In this document: positions 846 through 35,795 of the stretch, piece by piece
Position numbering within the stretch: position 1 is the first letter of the stretch
Layout: each line of letters opens with the position of its first letter
Source: an uncultured Acidobacteriia bacterium
GTDB lineage: Bacteria > Acidobacteriota > Terriglobia > Bryobacterales > Bryobacteraceae
Assembly (NCBI GenBank): GCA_903925015.1
Contig: CAIYDY010000326.1
Span: forward strand, 1 to 39,243
Reading direction: 5' to 3'
Length of the DNA: 39,243 nucleotides
Notes under the pieces: generated by a model
The model's database searches: none
The model's input: the letters and a program-made list of their open reading frames with translations, nothing else
Told to the model about the DNA's origin: nothing
Position numbers and translations under genes: made by a program

Positions 846-2531
846 GTGGGGAAAAACTACAGGGATCTTCGATTTTTAGCCGTGCCTGCTGCGCTCCTGC
901 TTGGCCTAATCGTGCCAGCTGGACCGGCCTTTGCCCAAGGTTGAGTGATCTCACGCTCCGGTCTGGGGTCAGGTGGCAGTGAAGCGAGTGGATATTTGCA
1001 GCCCGGTGACTGGACGGTCACAGGTGCGTTCCGGCACGTGTATTCGCATGTGCATTTCAGTGGTCCGACAGAAAACTTTTCACGCGAGCAGCTCGGTACG
1101 CAAGTACAGTCGAAGACAAATTTGATGAGCGTGAACGTGACCTACCAGTTGACTCCCCGCTGGAGTCTGACTGGAACGATTCCGTTCCTATCGGCCAGTC
1201 GACGCAACCAATCTCAATACGGTACGCTCCATACGTCCGGATTGGGGGATGTCAGCGTCGGTGCCGGCTATTGGATCCGCAGTCCAAAGAGTGAAAGGTC
1301 GGCGTTCAACAACGCGCAAATCGGATTGAGCCTGCTGGCACCATCCGGCAACGACCACCAGACCAACTTGATCGCAACCAGCTACGGCGCTACACCAACA
1401 ACCCAGTATCCCGACTACTCGGTGCAGCCCGGTGGCGGTACTTGGGGCATGGTGATGTCGGGGCAGGTTTTCCAGAACCTTGGCAGCAACACAATCTTGT
1501 TCGCCGATGGAACCTATGTGATGACCCAGGGCGGCCATCACAATTTCTGGACCTCCCACGGAGGCACAACAAACAATGCCCCGGCTCCCACCAAGGGACT
1601 GACCCAGTTCGATGCGGTTCAAGACCAGTACATGATCGAAATCGGGGCATCCCACCCCGCTCCAAAGATCAAGGGGCTTGGAATGACGCTGGCTGTCCGG
1701 GACGAGGGTGTACCGGCGAAGAACCTGATCGGTGACGACTTGGGATTCCGTCGACCAGGCTTTGGCATTTCATTGACGCCGGGCTTTATCTACACCAAGG
1801 GCAACCACATGCTGCAATTCAGCGTGGGCAAGGTCCTGATCCGAGACCGCACCAAGAGCGTGGCTGAAATCGTGAACGGCGTTCACGAAGGCGATGCGGC
1901 TTTTGCCAACTACGTCTGGATGGTAGGATACACGCTGAAGATGCCGGGCAAGCGCGATGCTGTCGGGACACCGGATCTGATTTCCTCGACTCGGAAAGTC
2001 GAGCCAGCGGCTCAGGCCTTAGCGATGAGCCCGCCAGCTGTGCGCGCGGCCGTCGTGAAGACGCCCGACACCTTCAAGCCGTTTGTACTGAGAACGTTGG
2101 ATGGCAAGCGCAAGACGTTGAAGGACTACGCCAACAAGGCTACTTTGGTAAATTTCTTCTTCCCGCGCTGCCCGTACTGCAATGTGGAACTTCCGGAAGT
2201 CCAAAAGATATACGACGAGTACAAAGGCAAAGGACTCTCGGTGGTCTGGATCAACATCCTGCCCGAAGAGGTTCCCCTGATTCCCGGTTGGCAGATGGTA
2301 AAGAACTTCACTGTTCCGGTGCTGATCGGTGCGACGCAGAGCGCCTTGATGAAGGACTATCAAATCAACACCACCCCGTCCTCGTACCTGCTGGGTCCGA
2401 AAGGAGAGGTGCTTTACTACGGAGCGGGCTACAAGAAGGGCGACGAAAAGATCCTCGAGGCGAAGATCGCGGAGGCTCTCCGGGTCCAATCGGCAGGCGT
2501 GGCCGGAGTTGCCGCCACAGGCGGTAATTAG
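846..2531 (+). CDS. Candidate selenoprotein: signal peptide, Sec33, beta-barrel-like domain, C-terminal thioredoxin domain
   Basis: Read from GTG 846, codons 1-32 encode a textbook signal peptide: basic Lys3/Arg6/Arg9, hydrophobic core VPAALLLGLIV, cleavage-like AFA-QG. Codon 33 is TGA (942-944). The frame then runs open for 528 codons to the TAA at 2529-2531. Residues about 55-370 have repeated aromatic/polar strands (QPGDWTVTGAFRHVYSHVHF, YQLTPRWSLTGTIPFLSAS) typical of outer-membrane beta-barrels. Residues about 405-545 are a TlpA/AhpC-like thioredoxin fold with active site Cys442-Pro-Tyr-Cys445 (FFFPRCPYCN) and cis-Pro (NTTPSSYLLG). From memory, related proteins carry Cys right after the QG, which would make codon 33 selenocysteine; the Sec-encoding selD in this window shows the machinery is likely present. 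Alternatives are a pseudogene or a sequencing error. An ATG at 838 in another frame would join this one by a slip in the GGGGAAAAA run at 848-856. The coding nature of 945-2531 is certain; Sec decoding is inference. Confidence 0.68.
945..982 (+). promoter_or_regulatory. Candidate bacterial SECIS hairpin after TGA 942-944
   Basis: Immediately 3' of the in-frame TGA, CTCC (956-959) can pair with GGGG (965-968) around a five-base loop GGTCT (960-964). An outer stem pairs TCAC (951-954) with GTGA (979-982). The GGUC loop matches the SelB-binding loop of the E. coli fdhF element, and it starts 15 nt after the TGA, near the spacing usual for bacterial SECIS. The inner stem is short and includes a T-G pair, so the fold needs an energy calculation and homologue covariation. 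Confidence 0.4.
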
Positions 2532-3766: not shown

Positions 3767-4741
3767 ATGGAAATCACACGACGGGACATTGGCAAGATGG
3801 CGCTGGCGGGACTCGCCGGCAGTGCCACGGGATTGGCGGCCACCAAGCCCAATTCGAATTTCGGCGGCGTTCAGGTTGGCATCAACATCCCCTACAGCCT
3901 CCACGGGATGCCCAGCAGCGCCGACGACCTGCTGGTCTACCTGGCACAGGTCAACGTAAATGCCGCGGAACTGCGGTCGCAGCCGATCGAGGCCTTCCTC
4001 GGTGCGCCGGCTGCAGCGGCCCGCGGCGTTGGTGAAGCACCGGTTGCGGGAAGAACACCACTGACGACGGAACAGGAAGCAGCTCAGAAGGCCGAGATAG
4101 CGGCCCTGAAAAAGTGGCGCCTATCGCGCTCCATGAACGAATTCAAGGCCTTCAGGAAGAAGTACGAGGACGCGGGCGTCAAAATCCAGATCGTCAAGTT
4201 CGACAAGATCGATTCCGCCAGCGACGAGGTGATCGATTACTGCTTCCAGATGTCGAAGGCGCTCGGTGCCGTTGCGATTTCCTGTGAGATTCCGGTCAGC
4301 AAGACGAAACGGCTCGGCGCATTTGCGACCAAGCATGAGTTGATGGTGGGCTACCATGGCCACGGAAACCTGACCAATCCCGAGGCATTCGGCAGGCTGG
4401 GAGCTTGGGAACAGGCTTTCTGGTACTCCAAGTACAACGGAGCCAATGTGGACATCGGGCACTTCTTCGCGTCCAACGGCTTCTCGCCTGCCGATTGGAT
4501 CAAGGAAAACCACACCCGGATCACCCATGTCCACCTCAAGGACCGCAAGAAGAACATGGGCGAAGGCATGCCGTGGGGCCAGGGGGATACTCCGCTTAAG
4601 GAAATCCTACTCCTCATGAAAGCTGAGAAGTACAAATTCCAAGCAACCATCGAACTGGAGTACCCCGTACCGGAAGGTTCCAACACCTTGGCGGAAATCT
4701 CCAAGTGTGTGAAGTTCTGCAAGGACGTGCTGGAAGGGTAG
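3767..4741 (+). CDS. Tat-exported sugar phosphate isomerase/epimerase-like TIM-barrel protein
   Basis: The 324-residue protein starts with a twin-arginine signal (TRRDIGKMALAGLAGSATGLAA). The body follows the xylose-isomerase-like TIM-barrel family: GVQVGINIPYSL, VNVNAAELRSQ, KIQIVKFD, AISCEIPVS, LMVGYHGHGNLTN, NVDIGHFFASNG, ITHVHLKDRKK and ATIELEYPVPEGSN. His in GYHGH, Asp in VDIGH, His in HVHLKD and Glu in IELEY are in the usual metal-binding positions. Related proteins isomerise or epimerise sugars or inositols, but substrate cannot be read from sequence. Residues about 80-125 hold an Ala/Glu-rich insertion. The ATG is 9 bp after the LamG-like gene, with AAGGA upstream. Confidence 0.85.
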   Translation: MEITRRDIGKMALAGLAGSATGLAATKPNSNFGGVQVGINIPYSLHGMPSSADDLLVYLAQVNVNAAELRSQPIEAFLGAPAAAARGVGEAPVAGRTPLTTEQEAAQKAEIAALKKWRLSRSMNEFKAFRKKYEDAGVKIQIVKFDKIDSASDEVIDYCFQMSKALGAVAISCEIPVSKTKRLGAFATKHELMVGYHGHGNLTNPEAFGRLGAWEQAFWYSKYNGANVDIGHFFASNGFSPADWIKENHTRITHVHLKDRKKNMGEGMPWGQGDTPLKEILLLMKAEKYKFQATIELEYPVPEGSNTLAEISKCVKFCKDVLEG

Positions 4742-4747
4742 TCAGTA

Positions 4748-4781
4748 GGGGAACGGGATTGCGCGGGCAATCCCGTTCCCC
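4748..4781. terminator. Long perfect hairpin between convergent genes
   Basis: GGGGAACGGGATTGC (4748-4762) pairs over all 15 bases with 4767-4781 around a GCGG tetraloop. It sits between the converging isomerase-like gene and the uracil-DNA glycosylase gene. There is no T-tract on either side, so it may need Rho or act mainly as an mRNA 3'-end stabiliser for both transcripts. Confidence 0.65.
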
Positions 4782-4787
4782 GGGGGC

Positions 4788-5582
4788 CTAATCGTAGACG
4801 AAATGCAGGACTTTCTTCAAGTCCTCCCAAGCCTCGCGCTTGGCGTCTTGATTGTAGGCGCGCAAAAGGTAGGACGGGTGGTAGGTGACGATGAGCGGTA
4901 TATCGCGCCACTTGTGCCATTTACCCCTGAGCTTGGTGACGCCATCTTTGCCACCCAACAAGGCTTTGGCTGCCGTTGAACCCAGTGCGCAAATCGCCTT
5001 GGGCTGAAGCACGGACAATTGGCGGAACAGAAACTGCCCGCAGGTTTCCATCTCATCCGGCTCGGGGTTGCGATTTTCCGGCGGACGGCATTTCACCACA
5101 TTGCAGATATAAACGTCAGCACGCTTGATTGAAATGCCTTCTTTGGCGGACGTGCCCTCAATCATTTGTGTCAACAACTGCCCCGCCCTGCCGACGAACG
5201 GCAGGCCCTGTTCATCCTCGTCCGCGCCCGGACCCTCACCCACAAACACCAGCCTCGCTGCCGGATCCCCCGAGCCAAAGACAATCTTGTTCCGACCAAT
5301 ATGGAGCTTGCAGCGCGTGCAATCGCCGATGTCGGAGCAGATCCGGTCCAGTGTGTCATTTTCCGGAGCCATGCCAGGCAGTTGGATGTCGATCACCTTT
5401 GGAATCTCAATCGTGGATATCGGCACTGCACGAGGCACAGAAATCGCCTCAACGGGTTTCAACAGTGGCTCGGGGACTTGGACTGCGTCGACAACTGGAA
5501 CCCGAGTCGAGCGTCGGTACAGATCCTTGACGCCAAGGTCCCTATAGTACTCGAGTCGCGCACGAAGATCTTCCGTCCCCAT
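4788..5582 (-). CDS. Family 4 uracil-DNA glycosylase with Fe-S cluster
   Basis: This 264-residue enzyme removes uracil from DNA in base-excision repair. The catalytic domain spans about residues 78-264. Motif 1 is VGEGPGADEDEQGLPFVG (about 114-131) and motif 2 is TYHPSYLLR near the C-terminus. Cys88, Cys91, Cys165 and Cys181 have the spacing of the 4Fe-4S ligands of family 4 enzymes. An extra N-terminal segment of about 75 residues, Pro/Val/Ile-rich and probably flexible, is common in family members annotated as phage-polymerase-like UDGs. The start codon directly follows the coaBC stop (5582/5583), so it is the last gene of the long minus-strand cluster. Confidence 0.93.
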   Translation of the reverse strand: MGTEDLRARLEYYRDLGVKDLYRRSTRVPVVDAVQVPEPLLKPVEAISVPRAVPISTIEIPKVIDIQLPGMAPENDTLDRICSDIGDCTRCKLHIGRNKIVFGSGDPAARLVFVGEGPGADEDEQGLPFVGRAGQLLTQMIEGTSAKEGISIKRADVYICNVVKCRPPENRNPEPDEMETCGQFLFRQLSVLQPKAICALGSTAAKALLGGKDGVTKLRGKWHKWRDIPLIVTYHPSYLLRAYNQDAKREAWEDLKKVLHFVYD

Positions 5583-6782
5583 CTACTTTCCCAATTTCAC
5601 AATCTGGTCGAAAATATGGTCGGCAACCACCCGCTTGGGTGCGCGGTCCACAGGAATGGTTTCTCCGTTGCGCAACACAAGAAGAACCTCGTTGGATTCG
5701 GATTCGAACGCAGACCCGTCGCCACCAACACGGTTGGCGACGATCATATCGCAGTTCTTGCCTTCGAGCTTGCGACGGGCATAGTCGAGAAGGTTTTCTG
5801 TCTCGGCCGCGAAACCGACCAAGATGAAATTGCGGGGGCCGTCGCCCAGTTCAGCCAGGATATCCGGTACCGGAACCAGTTCCAACGTTCGGTCGGCGGA
5901 GGTCTTTTTAATTTTTTGCGCGGAGGGGGTTGCCGGACGGAAGTCAGCCACCGCGGCGCACTTGATGACGACCGTCGCCTCGAACAAGTGGGCAAACACC
6001 GCATCGCGCATTTCGGCCGCGGTCTGCACCTGCTCGACCTCCGCACGAGCCGGAGGCTGCAAGTTCACCGGACCACTCACCAGCAGCACCCTGGCGCCCC
6101 GCGCCAGGGCTGCCTCGGCAAGCGCATAGCCCATCTTCCCGCTGGAACGATTCGAGATATAGCGGACAGGATCGACGGGCTCGCGCGTTGGGCCCGCCGT
6201 GATCAGGATCGTCTGCCCGACCAAGTCGGTGCGGCGTTTCCGCAGTGCGTCTTCCACGGCAGCCACTATTTTTTCGCTTTCGGCCAAACGCCCGGGGCCA
6301 ACAGTTCCGCAAGCGAGATACCCGTCGCCCGGCTCCACCAAGGCGTGTCCCCGACCCCGCAAGACAGCCACATTCTCCCGGACCGCCGCATGTGACCACA
6401 TCCTATCGTTCATTGCTGGAGCAAGCACTACCGGGCCGTCAAAGGCCAAATAAAGGGTGGACAGAAAATCATCAGCCAAGCCATGGGCAAACTTTGCCAG
6501 GACGTCAGCCGTAGCGGGAGCTACCAGCAACAAATCGTGTTCGCGGGCAACCCCTATATGCTCCACCGCGCTGGACAGGGTGGCATCGGGACTGGCCGAG
6601 GAGAAGAGATCGGTGATGACCTTGCGACCCGTCAGGGAGGCAAAAGTAAGGGGGCGGATGAATTCTTCCGCCCCCTTGGTCATGACAACTGTGATTTCGT
6701 GGCCGTTCCGGACAAGTTGGCGGGCAAGTTCGGCAGCTTTGTACGCTGCGATCCCGCCGGTCACGCCCAGAACGATCCGCAT
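5583..6782 (-). CDS. coaBC: Bifunctional phosphopantothenoylcysteine decarboxylase / phosphopantothenate-cysteine ligase
   Basis: The 399-residue protein carries out two consecutive steps of coenzyme A synthesis in the cytosol. The N-terminal flavin-dependent CoaC decarboxylase (about 1-180) begins with LGVTGGIAAYKAAELARQL and contains the PAMNDRMW signature. The C-terminal CoaB ligase (about 190-399) has ITAGPTREPVDPVRYISN followed by RSSGKMGYALAEAALARGA and a KKTSADRTLELVP segment. Length is typical of fused CoaBC. Gene order gmk-rpoZ-coaBC is common across bacteria. The reading frame is intact and abuts the downstream uracil-DNA glycosylase gene. Confidence 0.97.
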   Translation of the reverse strand: MRIVLGVTGGIAAYKAAELARQLVRNGHEITVVMTKGAEEFIRPLTFASLTGRKVITDLFSSASPDATLSSAVEHIGVAREHDLLLVAPATADVLAKFAHGLADDFLSTLYLAFDGPVVLAPAMNDRMWSHAAVRENVAVLRGRGHALVEPGDGYLACGTVGPGRLAESEKIVAAVEDALRKRRTDLVGQTILITAGPTREPVDPVRYISNRSSGKMGYALAEAALARGARVLLVSGPVNLQPPARAEVEQVQTAAEMRDAVFAHLFEATVVIKCAAVADFRPATPSAQKIKKTSADRTLELVPVPDILAELGDGPRNFILVGFAAETENLLDYARRKLEGKNCDMIVANRVGGDGSAFESESNEVLLVLRNGETIPVDRAPKRVVADHIFDQIVKLGK

Positions 6783-6806
6783 GGTTTGCCGCGCCGGCTG
6801 GAAAGC

Positions 6807-7100
6807 CTACGCCAACTTCTCCACACTGAGATCTTCGGGCAGGACATTCGGAGCAAGGACAACCGGAATATCGTACTTGATCAGCCCACGTCTAGCTTCC
6901 TCCATCGCGATCACGGTCGACTTCCGCGAAGACGTCGGCAACACTGGGCGGTGCCCGCTCTGCAACTGGCGGGCGCGCTTGGCGGCCACAATGATAAAGC
7001 GGTAGGTGCTCTGGTCCGGGTCGTCCGGAATCGAGCAGTGCATGTTGTTGCGAATTGGTGCGTCGGTCATTATCTTTTCAACTTCCCCGGGACATTTCAT
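6807..7100 (-). CDS. rpoZ: RNA polymerase omega subunit
   Basis: The product is up to 97 residues. The family core is clear: YRFIIVAAKRARQLQSG followed by KSTVIAMEEARRGLIKYDI, which in other bacteria binds the beta-prime C-terminus and aids RNA polymerase assembly. The start at 7100 has AGGA 8 bases upstream. An alternative ATG at 7070 would give 87 residues starting MTDAPIRNNM; the ten residues before it look unstructured, so that start is also possible. It lies between gmk and coaBC, its usual location. Confidence 0.93.
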   Translation of the reverse strand: MKCPGEVEKIMTDAPIRNNMHCSIPDDPDQSTYRFIIVAAKRARQLQSGHRPVLPTSSRKSTVIAMEEARRGLIKYDIPVVLAPNVLPEDLSVEKLA

Positions 7101-7118
7101 CCCGCAATCCTGATGGGC

Positions 7119-7742
7119 CTATGTCGACCCTAGCGCCGCGTCGAAGGTCCGAAGGATGGGACGAATCCTGTCCTCCACCCGCACACGCCTAACCCGTTCG
7201 GCCCTGACAATGGACTTGAGCGTTTCCGCCGCCTCGTCGAGGTCCTGGTTGACAAGCACGTAGTCGTACCGGCTGTAATCGCGAATCTCCCGCGCCGCGT
7301 CCGCAAGTCGGCGGCGGATGGTCTCGTCGCTATCCGAACTGCGGGACCTCAACCGCTGTTCCAAGATCTCCCTCGACGGAGCGAGGATAAAAATCGTTAC
7401 AGCGTCGGGAATCGTCTGTTTCAATTGTGACGCACCTTGCACGTCAATGTCGAGTACCAAGTCCAATTCCCTGTCCTCGGCAATCTTCAGAGCGCTTCGG
7501 TGGGTACCGTAGTAATTGCCGAAAACCTCGGCATGCTCCAGAAACTCGCTGTTTTGGAGACGGTCCTCGAACTCCAGGCGATCAATGAAGTGGTATGCCT
7601 CGCCATCGATTTCCCGACCGCGGGGCTTTCGGGTCGTGTAGGATACCGAGAATGTAAGGCCCGGCACTTCACTCATCAAGCGTGAAACAAGGGTAGATTT
7701 ACCCGAACCCGACGGGGCGGAAATGATGAAGACTCCGGTCAT
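7119..7742 (-). CDS. gmk: Guanylate kinase
   Basis: The 207-residue enzyme phosphorylates GMP to GDP with ATP. The P-loop SAPSGSGKSTL lies at residues 8-18. The GMP-binding region follows: FSVSYTTRKPRGREIDGEAYHF, then EFLEHAEVFGNYYGT. The LDIDVQGASQLK strand and the lid region (LRSRSSDSDETIRRRL) are intact. Its ATG overlaps the yicC stop by four bases (7739-7742), which indicates translational coupling, and rpoZ follows 18 bp later. Confidence 0.97.
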   Translation of the reverse strand: MTGVFIISAPSGSGKSTLVSRLMSEVPGLTFSVSYTTRKPRGREIDGEAYHFIDRLEFEDRLQNSEFLEHAEVFGNYYGTHRSALKIAEDRELDLVLDIDVQGASQLKQTIPDAVTIFILAPSREILEQRLRSRSSDSDETIRRRLADAAREIRDYSRYDYVLVNQDLDEAAETLKSIVRAERVRRVRVEDRIRPILRTFDAALGST

Positions 7743-9456: not shown

Positions 9457-10062
9457 TCAGTGCCCCAGTTCGACGTCGAGTGCGTGGGCGATGTCCTCGT
9501 AGATGATTGTTTCCACAAACGATTGATTGCCGATGTACACAGTTGGAGTCTTCTTGACACCGCGTCCGGCACCGGCCTGAATGTCCTGCTCCAAAGCCGC
9601 GATCAGGCGACCGTCCGAGAGGCAGTTGGTGATCCCGTCGGGGTCCAAGTGGTTCCGCAGTGCAAACTGGCGCAGCCACGACGGCAAGCCGTGGACGGTC
9701 AGGTGGTTCTGTTCGGAAAGCACCTCGCGGCGGAACTCGATTCCAGCCTTCGGATTGCGTTCGTAAATCCAGCGCCCGGCGATGGCGGCGTCACGGGCCC
9801 ACTCGTGCTTGGACAGCGGGAAGTCCCTGTGGATGAACGCTACACGCCTGCCGTATTTTGGCAACAGTTTCTGGTCGAGAATTTCTCGAAGCGTTTGGCA
9901 GTCCGAGCACTGTAAATCCTCGTACAGGAAAACCTTGACGGCGCTCGCCGGATTTCCTTCCACGATTTCCACTCGCGCTCCATGAAGACTGGGGATCATT
10001 ATCATCGCAATCACGGTCGTCAGTAGCCGGACCCGGAGGAGTTCTGTTCTTCCTATTCCCAT
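9457..10062 (-). CDS. DsbA-like thioredoxin-fold protein
   Basis: The 201-residue protein has an N-terminal signal/anchor (LLTTVIAMIMIPSLHGA) and one thioredoxin-fold domain of the DsbA/BdbD kind. The active site is Cys52-Ser-Asp-Cys55 (LYEDLQCSDCQTL), and the cis-proline loop is KKTPTVYIGNQSF with Pro173. The middle insertion (FPLSKHEWARDAAIAGRW) is typical of family members that oxidise or isomerise disulfides in the periplasm. Both active-site cysteines use ordinary Cys codons. It starts 8 bp after the DUF697 gene, so the two are probably co-transcribed. Confidence 0.9.
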   Translation of the reverse strand: MGIGRTELLRVRLLTTVIAMIMIPSLHGARVEIVEGNPASAVKVFLYEDLQCSDCQTLREILDQKLLPKYGRRVAFIHRDFPLSKHEWARDAAIAGRWIYERNPKAGIEFRREVLSEQNHLTVHGLPSWLRQFALRNHLDPDGITNCLSDGRLIAALEQDIQAGAGRGVKKTPTVYIGNQSFVETIIYEDIAHALDVELGH

Positions 10063-28213: not shown

Positions 28214-28303
28214 GGAGGAATGGCCGAGCGGTTGATGGCGGCGGTCTTGAAAACCGTTGACGGGGAAACCCGTTCGGGGGTTCGAATCCCTCTTCCTCCG
28301 CCA
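28214..28303 (+). tRNA. tRNA-Ser (anticodon UGA)
   Basis: The 90-nt gene folds as a class II tRNA. The acceptor GGAGGAA (28214-28220) pairs with TTCCTCC (28293-28299), followed by discriminator G and an encoded CCA. The anticodon stem-loop CGGTCTTGAAAACCG places TGA as anticodon, reading UCA Ser codons. A long variable arm and a GGTTCGAATCC T-loop are present. It is not tRNA-Sec, which has a UCA anticodon and a longer acceptor/T helix. Confidence 0.97.
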
Positions 28304-34769: not shown

Positions 34770-35795
34770 ATGGAGTTCTCCCGGAAATTGACGGCGCACG
34801 TAAAAGCGGCCGGTTGAGCGAGCAAATTGAGTCCAAAGTTGTTGGACCAAGTGCTCGGCTCGCTGCCGCGCGTCCACAATCCGAATGTCCTAGTCGGTTA
34901 CGATACGTCCGACGACGCCGGAGTGTATCGTTTATCCGACGATCTCGCCCTCGTCCAGACTGTCGACTTCTTCACGCCGATTGTGGATGATCCCTTCACC
35001 TTCGGGGCCATCGCAGCGGCCAATTCGCTGAGCGACGTCTATGCGATGGGCGGCAAGCCGATCTCTTCGCTCTCGATTGTGGCGTTTCCGGGCGGGGCCG
35101 ACATGGAGATCCTCGGGGAAATCCTGCGCGGCGGCTTGGAGAAGATGCGCGAGGCCGGGTGCGCAATCCTCGGCGGCCATTCCGTCAACGACCCCGAGAT
35201 CAAGTTCGGCTACGCGGTCACCGGCACCATCCACCCCGGAAAAATCAAAGCCAATACCGGGGCGCGCGTGGGCGACGCGCTCGTCTTCACGAAGGCGATC
35301 GGCACGGGCGTAATCGGAACGGCTCTCAAGCGCGGCATCGCGTCGGAGGAGTCCGTCGCAGCCGCCACCGCGTCCATGCTCGGCCTGAACAAGGCCGCGT
35401 GCGAGGCGATGCTGGCATACGACGTCCATGGCTGCACGGATATTACCGGTTTTGGTCTGGCCGGTCATGCGAGGGAGATGGCGGTGGGCAGCAATGTCAC
35501 GTTGGAAATCGACACCGCCCGTGTGCCCCTGCTGCCCGGTGCGCTCCAAGCGGTGGAAGCCGGGGCTGTTCCCGGTGGTTTGCGCAACAACCGGGACTTC
35601 GCCGAATGCTCCGTGGAATCGGCACAGGGAATCCCGGAGGCGCTGTTGACGCTGATGTTCGACCCCCAGACTTCAGGGGGTCTTCTGATTTCCCTGCCCG
35701 AACCCGATGCGGACGCACTCTGCGAGGACCTGCCAGCCGCCCGCAAGATCGGCAGGGTGGTGGCGCGCGAAAATAAACCCATAAGATTTTTATGA
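34770..35795 (+). CDS. selD: Selenide, water dikinase, itself a selenoprotein (Sec16)
   Basis: The 341-residue enzyme makes selenophosphate from selenide and ATP, the selenium donor for tRNA-Sec. From ATG 34770 the frame reads MEFSRKLTAHVKAAG, then TGA (34815-34817), then ASKLSPKLLDQVL. This is the catalytic loop of SelD, where the residue after AAG is Cys or Sec (Cys17 in E. coli) and the nearby Lys19 is essential. The conserved core follows: GYDTSDDAGVYRL, VQTVDFFTPIVDDP, NSLSDVYAMGGKP, GGHSVNDPEIKFGYAVTG and DPQTSGGLL. A start at the TTG 34827 would lose the catalytic loop and is wrong. Sec decoding is supported by family knowledge and a SECIS-like hairpin. Its stop overlaps pyrF (ATGA). 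Confidence 0.95.
34818..34863 (+). promoter_or_regulatory. SECIS-like hairpin of selD
   Basis: Directly after the TGA, GCGAGC (34818-34823) pairs with GCTCGC (34858-34863). Inside, TTG (34827-34829) pairs with CAA (34848-34850), A34830 is bulged, and GTCCAA (34831-34836) pairs perfectly with TTGGAC (34842-34847) around the loop AGTTG (34837-34841). The GU-containing loop starts 19 nt after the TGA, the distance at which bacterial SelB recognises its stem-loop. Confidence 0.75.

Follow-up and report, generated by a model that had tools for sequence, protein, structure and literature searches.

Two kinds of described proteins come closest to the gene analysed here, namely plugged outer-membrane channels and bacterial selenoproteins. 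In the COG4313 channel Pput2725 (structure 4rl8), the lumen takes up a stretch of about 14 residues from the N-terminus (PMC4493636, excerpt). The protein FapF (5o65/5o67) has a helical plug in a 12-stranded barrel as well as a periplasmic coiled coil and serves amyloid secretion (PMC5557850, excerpt). On the side of the selenoproteins, nine new families have been reported, none of which is described as a barrel of this kind in the excerpt of PMC12013277 used here, and the table of the same source, as far as seen, gives no new families for the one Acidobacteriota genome noted in it. For Acidobacteria, three families and four selenoproteins were counted in PMC1794560 (excerpt). The gene described here lies in a stretch of 39,243 nucleotides, in the following called the window, which is contig CAIYDY010000326.1 of an uncultured Acidobacteriia bacterium (assembly GCA_903925015.1). 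Taken as a whole, it is best explained as coding for an outer-membrane channel that bears selenocysteine (Sec) in a redox-active plug and is served by a thioredoxin, a reading to which we assign a probability of roughly 70%. The features of the window are as follows.

846-2531, plus strand: putative Sec-containing gene for barrel and thioredoxin, 561 residues when translated with TGA as Sec
846, plus strand: start codon GTG, with ATG at the homologous place in the sister gene of locus L061
846-935, plus strand: signal peptide, residues 1-30, with a predicted signal peptidase I site between AFA and QG
936-1010, plus strand: N-terminal segment of 25 residues ahead of strand 1, a likely channel plug by analogy with COG4313 (pLDDT 50-63)
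942-944, plus strand: TGA, read as Sec, precursor residue 33 and predicted mature residue 3; this column is TGA or Cys in 176/176 readable genes
955-969, plus strand: candidate SECIS hairpin GCUCC(GGUCU)GGGGU, which pairs in 6/6 distinct sequences of the clade
1011-1943, plus strand: predicted 12-stranded outer-membrane beta-barrel, COG4313/FapF-like, according to AlphaFold2, Foldseek and a profile match
2067-2465, plus strand: TlpA/ResA-like thioredoxin (Redoxin) domain, residues 408-540 (PF08534, E 1.9e-15)
2169-2180, plus strand: CPYC active site
2529-2531, plus strand: terminal stop of the gene
34770-35795, plus strand: selD with one TGA inside, in frame at 34815-34817 (TIGR00476, 365.9 bits); the start at 34770 is the chosen ATG

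The gene thus runs from the signal peptide over Q31-G32-U33, the barrel and a linker to a Redoxin/AhpC-TSA domain. The initial annotation had seen a single TGA between a signal peptide and a 528-codon frame of the same phase, and both the coordinates and the frame held, as without read-through an ORF of 528 codons starts at 945 and the TGA at 942-944 is the only one in frame. Judged by comparison with its relatives, UGA 942-944 almost certainly encodes Sec. An alignment of the column of residue 33 with homologues had been proposed as a check on this point, and among 176 distinct readable genes, including that of the window, the site codon is TGA in 74, TGC or TGT in 102 and anything else in none. 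This set contains no pair of genes that are 97% or more alike over the stretch of 230 nt used for the comparison. It counts L256 and L261 as a single gene, L170 repeats L168 and L182 repeats L154, and L171, L178, the shared place of L258/L262 and one of two L244 segments were left out with an unreadable site. For the profile search TGA had been translated as Cys, a step that eases the alignment at the site and cannot account for the absence of other codons. A first pass over 149 genomes of the phylum gave 14 barrel loci, window included, with eight TGA and six Cys at the column. The set of 158 distinct genes, to which most counts below refer, was drawn from 80 of 403 relatives matching one pattern, from 396 phylum genomes (37 matching) and from 257 order genomes (55 matching); it has TGA in 63, TGC in 57, TGT in 38 and no other codon. 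Nine extra distinct genes comprise three with TGA and six with Cys, and a replicate in 392 genomes from Planctomycetota, the phylum of L082 by record label (12 matching), yielded nine new readable genes, eight with TGA and one with TGC.

If the TGA were a true stop, the downstream frame would either restart at the GTG at 945, which does follow the TGA directly, or be decayed. However, a protein restarted there would have no signal peptide, 102 genes have Cys in the column and none has anything but Cys or TGA, and a hairpin follows the TGA in the family. Furthermore, selection speaks against it: between the window gene and L061, dN and dS are 0.125 and 1.73 in the signal part and 0.084 and 1.53 in the barrel, which indicates that purifying selection is acting on either side of the TGA. 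The probability left for a genuine stop is minimal, and the same applies to a sequencing or assembly mistake or a TGA standing for another amino acid. The latter might be considered as the closest records, L060 and L061, are metagenome-assembled genomes (MAGs) of uncultured Acidobacteriia; but the same TGA is found in L060 (99% identical; another assembly of what is, by sequence, the same species), in L061 (87%) and in another 72 distinct genes, relatives align a Cys with it, and the machinery for Sec is present. Restart after a stop, sequencing error and code reassignment were therefore rejected on recurrence, selection and column counts.

The surroundings of the site are highly conserved. 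In all 158 genes Gln is found at -2, preceded at -3 by Ala, Gly or Ser, and Gly occupies -1 in 157/158, whereas Arg at +4 is present in 63/63 Sec genes and in 72/95 Cys genes (His in 22). Exceptions among 18 later genes are L177 (G-G-C), L179 (Q-C-U) and L259 (V-G-U). As the residues at -5 and -3 suit signal peptidase I, the mature protein probably starts with Q-G-Sec. The suggestion of the initial annotation that the TGA stands at the place of a mature N-terminal Cys is therefore right with regard to the Cys of the relatives, but the predicted position is mature residue 3 (A, then QGU) and not 1. A lipobox has a Leu-type residue at -3 and a small residue at -2 before the Cys; a lipoprotein reading was ruled out, given Gln at -2 and Ala/Gly/Ser at -3. 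Some genomes carry several such genes. L061 has two barrel-thioredoxin fusion genes in tandem (4135-7689), of which the first has Cys (TGT) at the site and the second TGA, a natural pair for comparing the two residues within one genome. Genome G608 (L204, L238) has one Sec-type and one Cys-type barrel gene of different clades, and genome G996 (L252, L260, L263), from the Planctomycetota search, has three barrel genes, each of which carries the TGA.

A TGA followed by a hairpin recurs in related genomes, a second point that had been named as worth checking. The hairpin of the family has at least five contiguous base pairs and a 7-nt loop, often CGUGnnY, and lies 23 nt after the UGA. At this fixed place it is present in 51/63 Sec genes vs 2/95 Cys genes (Fisher p 3e-27, relatedness ignored), and likewise in 5/8 Planctomycetota Sec genes. 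The 12/63 Sec genes without it comprise six of the clade of the window and six others lacking a clear one (L106:6079, L064:6082, L193, L194, L240 and L244); L259, L260 and L263 lack a clear one as well. For the first 32 Sec genes, mean stem length is 6.0 bp vs 3.3 bp in resamples that keep protein and codon use, with no single gene being significant alone in this synonymous-resample test. For covariation, 55 distinct 48-mers of non-fusion Sec genes were used, the hairpin-lacking exceptions included. There, 90% of the cells pair and slid partners do far worse, and double-change cells amount to 38 vs 13.7 in shuffles (0/500 as high), whereas pairs changed on both sides, 5/8 vs 3.6 in shuffles (79/500), do not go beyond chance. 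RNAalifold recovers the family helix de novo. In many Sec genes of the main type a peptide motif of the kind NAPVFGA overlies the hairpin (e.g., L014:1468-1515), which is rare in the Cys genes listed; the RNA hairpin may shape the protein sequence there. One Cys gene, L074:6094 of a Gammaproteobacteria MAG, keeps a 5-bp hairpin resembling the Sec type in a genome with SelB and is perhaps a recent change from Sec to Cys.

The fixed-place hairpin is absent from the clade of the window, which has the GGUCU hairpin instead. Across the clade it reads GCUCC(GGUCU)GG[A/G]G[U/C], with one-sided changes that preserve pairing in two pairs, for which the shuffle control is uninformative. The RNAalifold consensus of the clade includes this hairpin together with another small helix, of which the UGA is a part. 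The loop GGUCU is, we presume, that of E. coli fdhF. The window sequence alone folds no better than shuffles (z 0.32) and has another fold as its minimum, and the two Rfam matches near the gene are both below their gathering scores, neither being relevant. The loop starts 15 nt past the TGA, slightly closer than the 16-37 nt of the published SECIS model (PMC13188914, excerpt). The SECIS-like hairpin claimed at the outset thus exists and pairs throughout the clade, but it is energetically ordinary by itself and unlike the hairpin of most Sec genes of the family. Altogether, the hairpin evidence is strong for the family and moderate for the window gene.

The genome of the window (G000; 97% complete, 459 contigs) contains selA, selB, selD and a tRNA-Sec with the anticodon UCA (G000:C9), so that the presumption that the decoding machinery is present proved correct, as did that of a Sec-encoded selD in the window itself. 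The search with RF01852 also matches other tRNAs, and only the UCA tRNA was accepted; the match at 28214-28299 of the window was rejected as tRNA-Sec, being a tRNA-Ser according to ARAGORN. In the phylum sample, SelB was found in 20/22 Sec-type vs 2/15 Cys-only genomes (p 3e-6), a difference to which relatedness contributes, as 11 of the 13 SelB-less Cys-only genomes belong to one family (f2). Within the order of the window, SelB fails to separate Sec-type (35/38) from Cys-only genomes (13/17; p 0.18) because 208/257 genomes there carry SelB. Among 31 chosen genomes, SelB is present in 7/9 of the Sec type, two of which (L060 and L061) probably also figure in the order sample as G412 and G414, and in 3/22 Cys-only genomes above the cut-off, with a fourth below. 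No match to the SelB wing was obtained in 5/59 Sec-type genomes of the phylum and order samples; both of those that were checked have selA.

The proposed combination of a barrel with a thioredoxin domain carrying CPYC was supported by structure prediction and Pfam. Modelled without the thioredoxin, the barrel reached a mean pLDDT of 86.7 and a pTM of 0.86 in AlphaFold2, with 12 main strands by count, residues 1-20 being of low confidence (pLDDT 50-63); the thioredoxin part of the full-length model was poor. Foldseek placed FapF first (E 4e-13, TMt 0.70), followed by the COG4313 channel 4rl8 (TMt 0.70), and a sequence profile matches FapF with E 4.6e-9 over model positions 86-270 only. PF13557 (Phenol_MetA_deg) is found in 27/108 alignment rows at E 0.01 or better, and it gave no match to the window protein at E 1. 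Among the barrel matches listed for NCBIfam over the 108 rows (25 of 27 families), FapF accounts for 20 rows (best E 1.2e-8) and GSU2204 for two; the GSU2204 model NF041027 has no match to the window protein and its two rows are weak (best E 7.6e-4). By analogy with the channels named at the beginning, the Sec probably sits in the channel lumen.

The domain at the C-terminus is a Redoxin/AhpC-TSA domain with CxxC and thus of the TlpA/ResA type, with the NCBIfam ResA model remaining below its cut-off. In 7/158 genes the barrel is fused to a TlpA-like partner (window, both L061 copies, L219, L220, L224 and L231); in 49/158 such a gene lies within 600 nt, and in 102/158 none was seen at that distance, with no more than 15 of the 158 loci being of insufficient length to show one. 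The 49 unfused neighbours are located downstream on the same strand in 17 cases, upstream on the same strand in 12 and upstream on the opposite strand in 20. Barrel and thioredoxin in one chain, announced as a new architecture, are therefore real in the window but confined to a small clade, the 49 others having adjacent genes. A thioredoxin is fused or near in 16/63 Sec and 40/95 Cys genes, and none was seen in 47/63 Sec genes. Within 92 neighbourhoods with 893 ORFs, all 14 thioredoxin-like ORFs belong to the barrel loci, three being the barrel gene and 11 lying next to it, and CxxC is present in all 79 thioredoxin match places, overlapping loci being counted repeatedly. Neighbour clustering, which is rough as the ORF calling took some ORFs on the wrong strand, revealed no gene other than the TlpA-like one that repeatedly accompanies barrels from more than one group. 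The redox model is based mainly on this repeated association, and on balance we lean towards a redox cycle in which Sec works with the TlpA-like partner. The two-component genes adjoining a few barrels look generic. Cluster c1 (15 loci, mostly Bacteroidota; e.g., L072:5076-5642) consists of a protein of approximately 180 aa with an N-terminal hydrophobic stretch directly upstream of the barrel, and no Pfam match was found in the two members scanned. On the minus strand, the window also holds a DsbA/Thioredoxin_4-like protein (9457-10062, PF13462).

The same selenoprotein might instead handle metal. The Sec or Cys would then bind a soft metal or metalloid ion at the periplasmic mouth, the TlpA/SCO-like partner would be a metal or thiol chaperone, and the channel would import or export the ion or its complex. 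A single Sec/Cys with an Arg four residues on would fit, and the fused domain is weakly SCO1-SenC-like (PF02630, E 3.1e-5); however, that match is far weaker than the one to Redoxin, no metal gene occurs among the 20 neighbour proteins scanned with Pfam (recurrent or adjacent ones only), and the invariant columns of alignment A1 hold no second Cys, His or Met. We consider such a metal function unlikely.

With regard to the evolution of the site, a quick tree of the 158 barrels, built with the 20 residues nearest the site removed and read as unrooted counts, requires at least 11 changes between Sec and Cys, nine of them forced by the starred branches, with long branches that meet weakening single placements. 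A further alternative must be seen in this light, namely that the residue is non-catalytic and anchors the plug, through a stable mixed disulfide or selenodisulfide, to the thioredoxin or some other partner. It would agree with the lone thiol or selenol, as 88/158 barrels have no further Cys, and with a partner carrying CxxC. Yet that Sec has been kept or regained in so many lineages suggests chemistry rather than a fixed bond, and a purely structural role is most improbable. In a careful tree of 61 chosen rows, the fused clade of the window (six Sec, one Cys) lies within a group of 28 with 22 Cys rows (support 100/100) and adjoins the Cys rows L200 and L203 (support 99/95). In these closest unfused relatives the thioredoxin gene lies downstream at a distance of 6 and 10 nt, and this accounts for the fusion. 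The tree suggests that the clade of the window regained Sec from Cys with a new hairpin, the direction being unprovable from unrooted counts; the simplest reading is that Sec then changed to Cys in one copy of the tandem pair of L061.

The mechanism that we favour, the Sec-bearing channel with a redox-active plug, would proceed as follows. UGA 942-944 would be decoded as Sec via SelA, SelB and tRNA-Sec, and the precursor would be exported, cleaved before Gln31 and inserted into the outer membrane as a 12-stranded channel of the COG4313/FapF kind. By analogy with the known plugs, the short N-terminal segment, whose third residue is the Sec, probably enters the barrel from the periplasm and folds up inside it. 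There, the lone Sec, which is Cys in many relatives, would be the redox-active selenol of the plug and would either gate the channel or reduce an oxidised compound. Re-reduction of the selenol would be the task of the TlpA-like thioredoxin with its CxxC, which in the window is attached to the periplasmic C-terminus and in many relatives is encoded by an adjacent gene. The Sec/Cys column, the hairpins, the decoding genes, the predicted fold and the association with thioredoxin are what the comparison supports, whereas luminal position, redox cycle and substrate are what we infer from it. Tentatively, one may go further and think of an outer-membrane selenoenzyme with a catalytic Sec in the luminal plug and a dedicated periplasmic thioredoxin, for example reducing hydroperoxides of lipids or other hydrophobic compounds that enter the barrel, or gating the pore by redox state, whose Sec was regained in the clade of the window from a Cys ancestor together with a fresh SECIS hairpin and the gene fusion; this detailed version is possible but rather doubtful.

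The gene appears to represent a new candidate selenoprotein family that many relatives share. It would be a sizeable one, with 74 TGA genes in Acidobacteriota and, by record label, Planctomycetota, and such genes are easily cut short in annotation. With Sec placed in the segment ahead of the barrel, and a thioredoxin gene frequently nearby, the family offers a testable route to redox control at the outer membrane; moreover, it is well suited to studying the gain of Sec, in view of its repeated Sec/Cys switches, the tandem pair and the likely return from Cys to Sec alongside a new hairpin. No such family is named in the table of 119 selenoprotein families (PMC13188914 Table 1, 2026, excerpt), with whose nameless hypothetical proteins the comparison ran via NCBIfam models only. 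In NCBIfam 20.0 no model scored above its cut-off for the window protein or three relatives. Among the titles and abstract openings listed in the literature searches none deals with such a family, and it may be listed unnamed elsewhere, e.g., in supplementary tables.

Compared with the known systems, the COG4313/PF13557 channels such as Pput2725 are alike in their 12 strands and in an N-terminal segment before strand 1. Pput2725 differs, as the text of PMC4493636 does not contain the word cysteine and its excerpt describes no thioredoxin partner. Fold and profile of the window barrel match best with FapF, which is also a plugged 12-stranded barrel but is not known to contain Sec. It differs by its coiled coil and by the export of amyloid (PMC5557850, excerpt). 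The TlpA/ResA-type thioredoxins resemble the fused domain and the scanned neighbours in Redoxin/AhpC-TSA and CxxC, with ResA models below cut-off, and differ in that the domain is here fused to a barrel in 7/158 genes. Finally, GSU2204 (MtrB/PioB-type) and the FCYXU TonB-dependent receptor are outer-membrane barrel proteins that are listed as selenoproteins (PMC13188914 Table 1, excerpt). The initial claim that no known bacterial selenoprotein family is of this type consequently holds as far as that table and NCBIfam are concerned, but Sec in an outer-membrane barrel as such has precedent in these two, which belong to other families and have other motifs than the window barrel.
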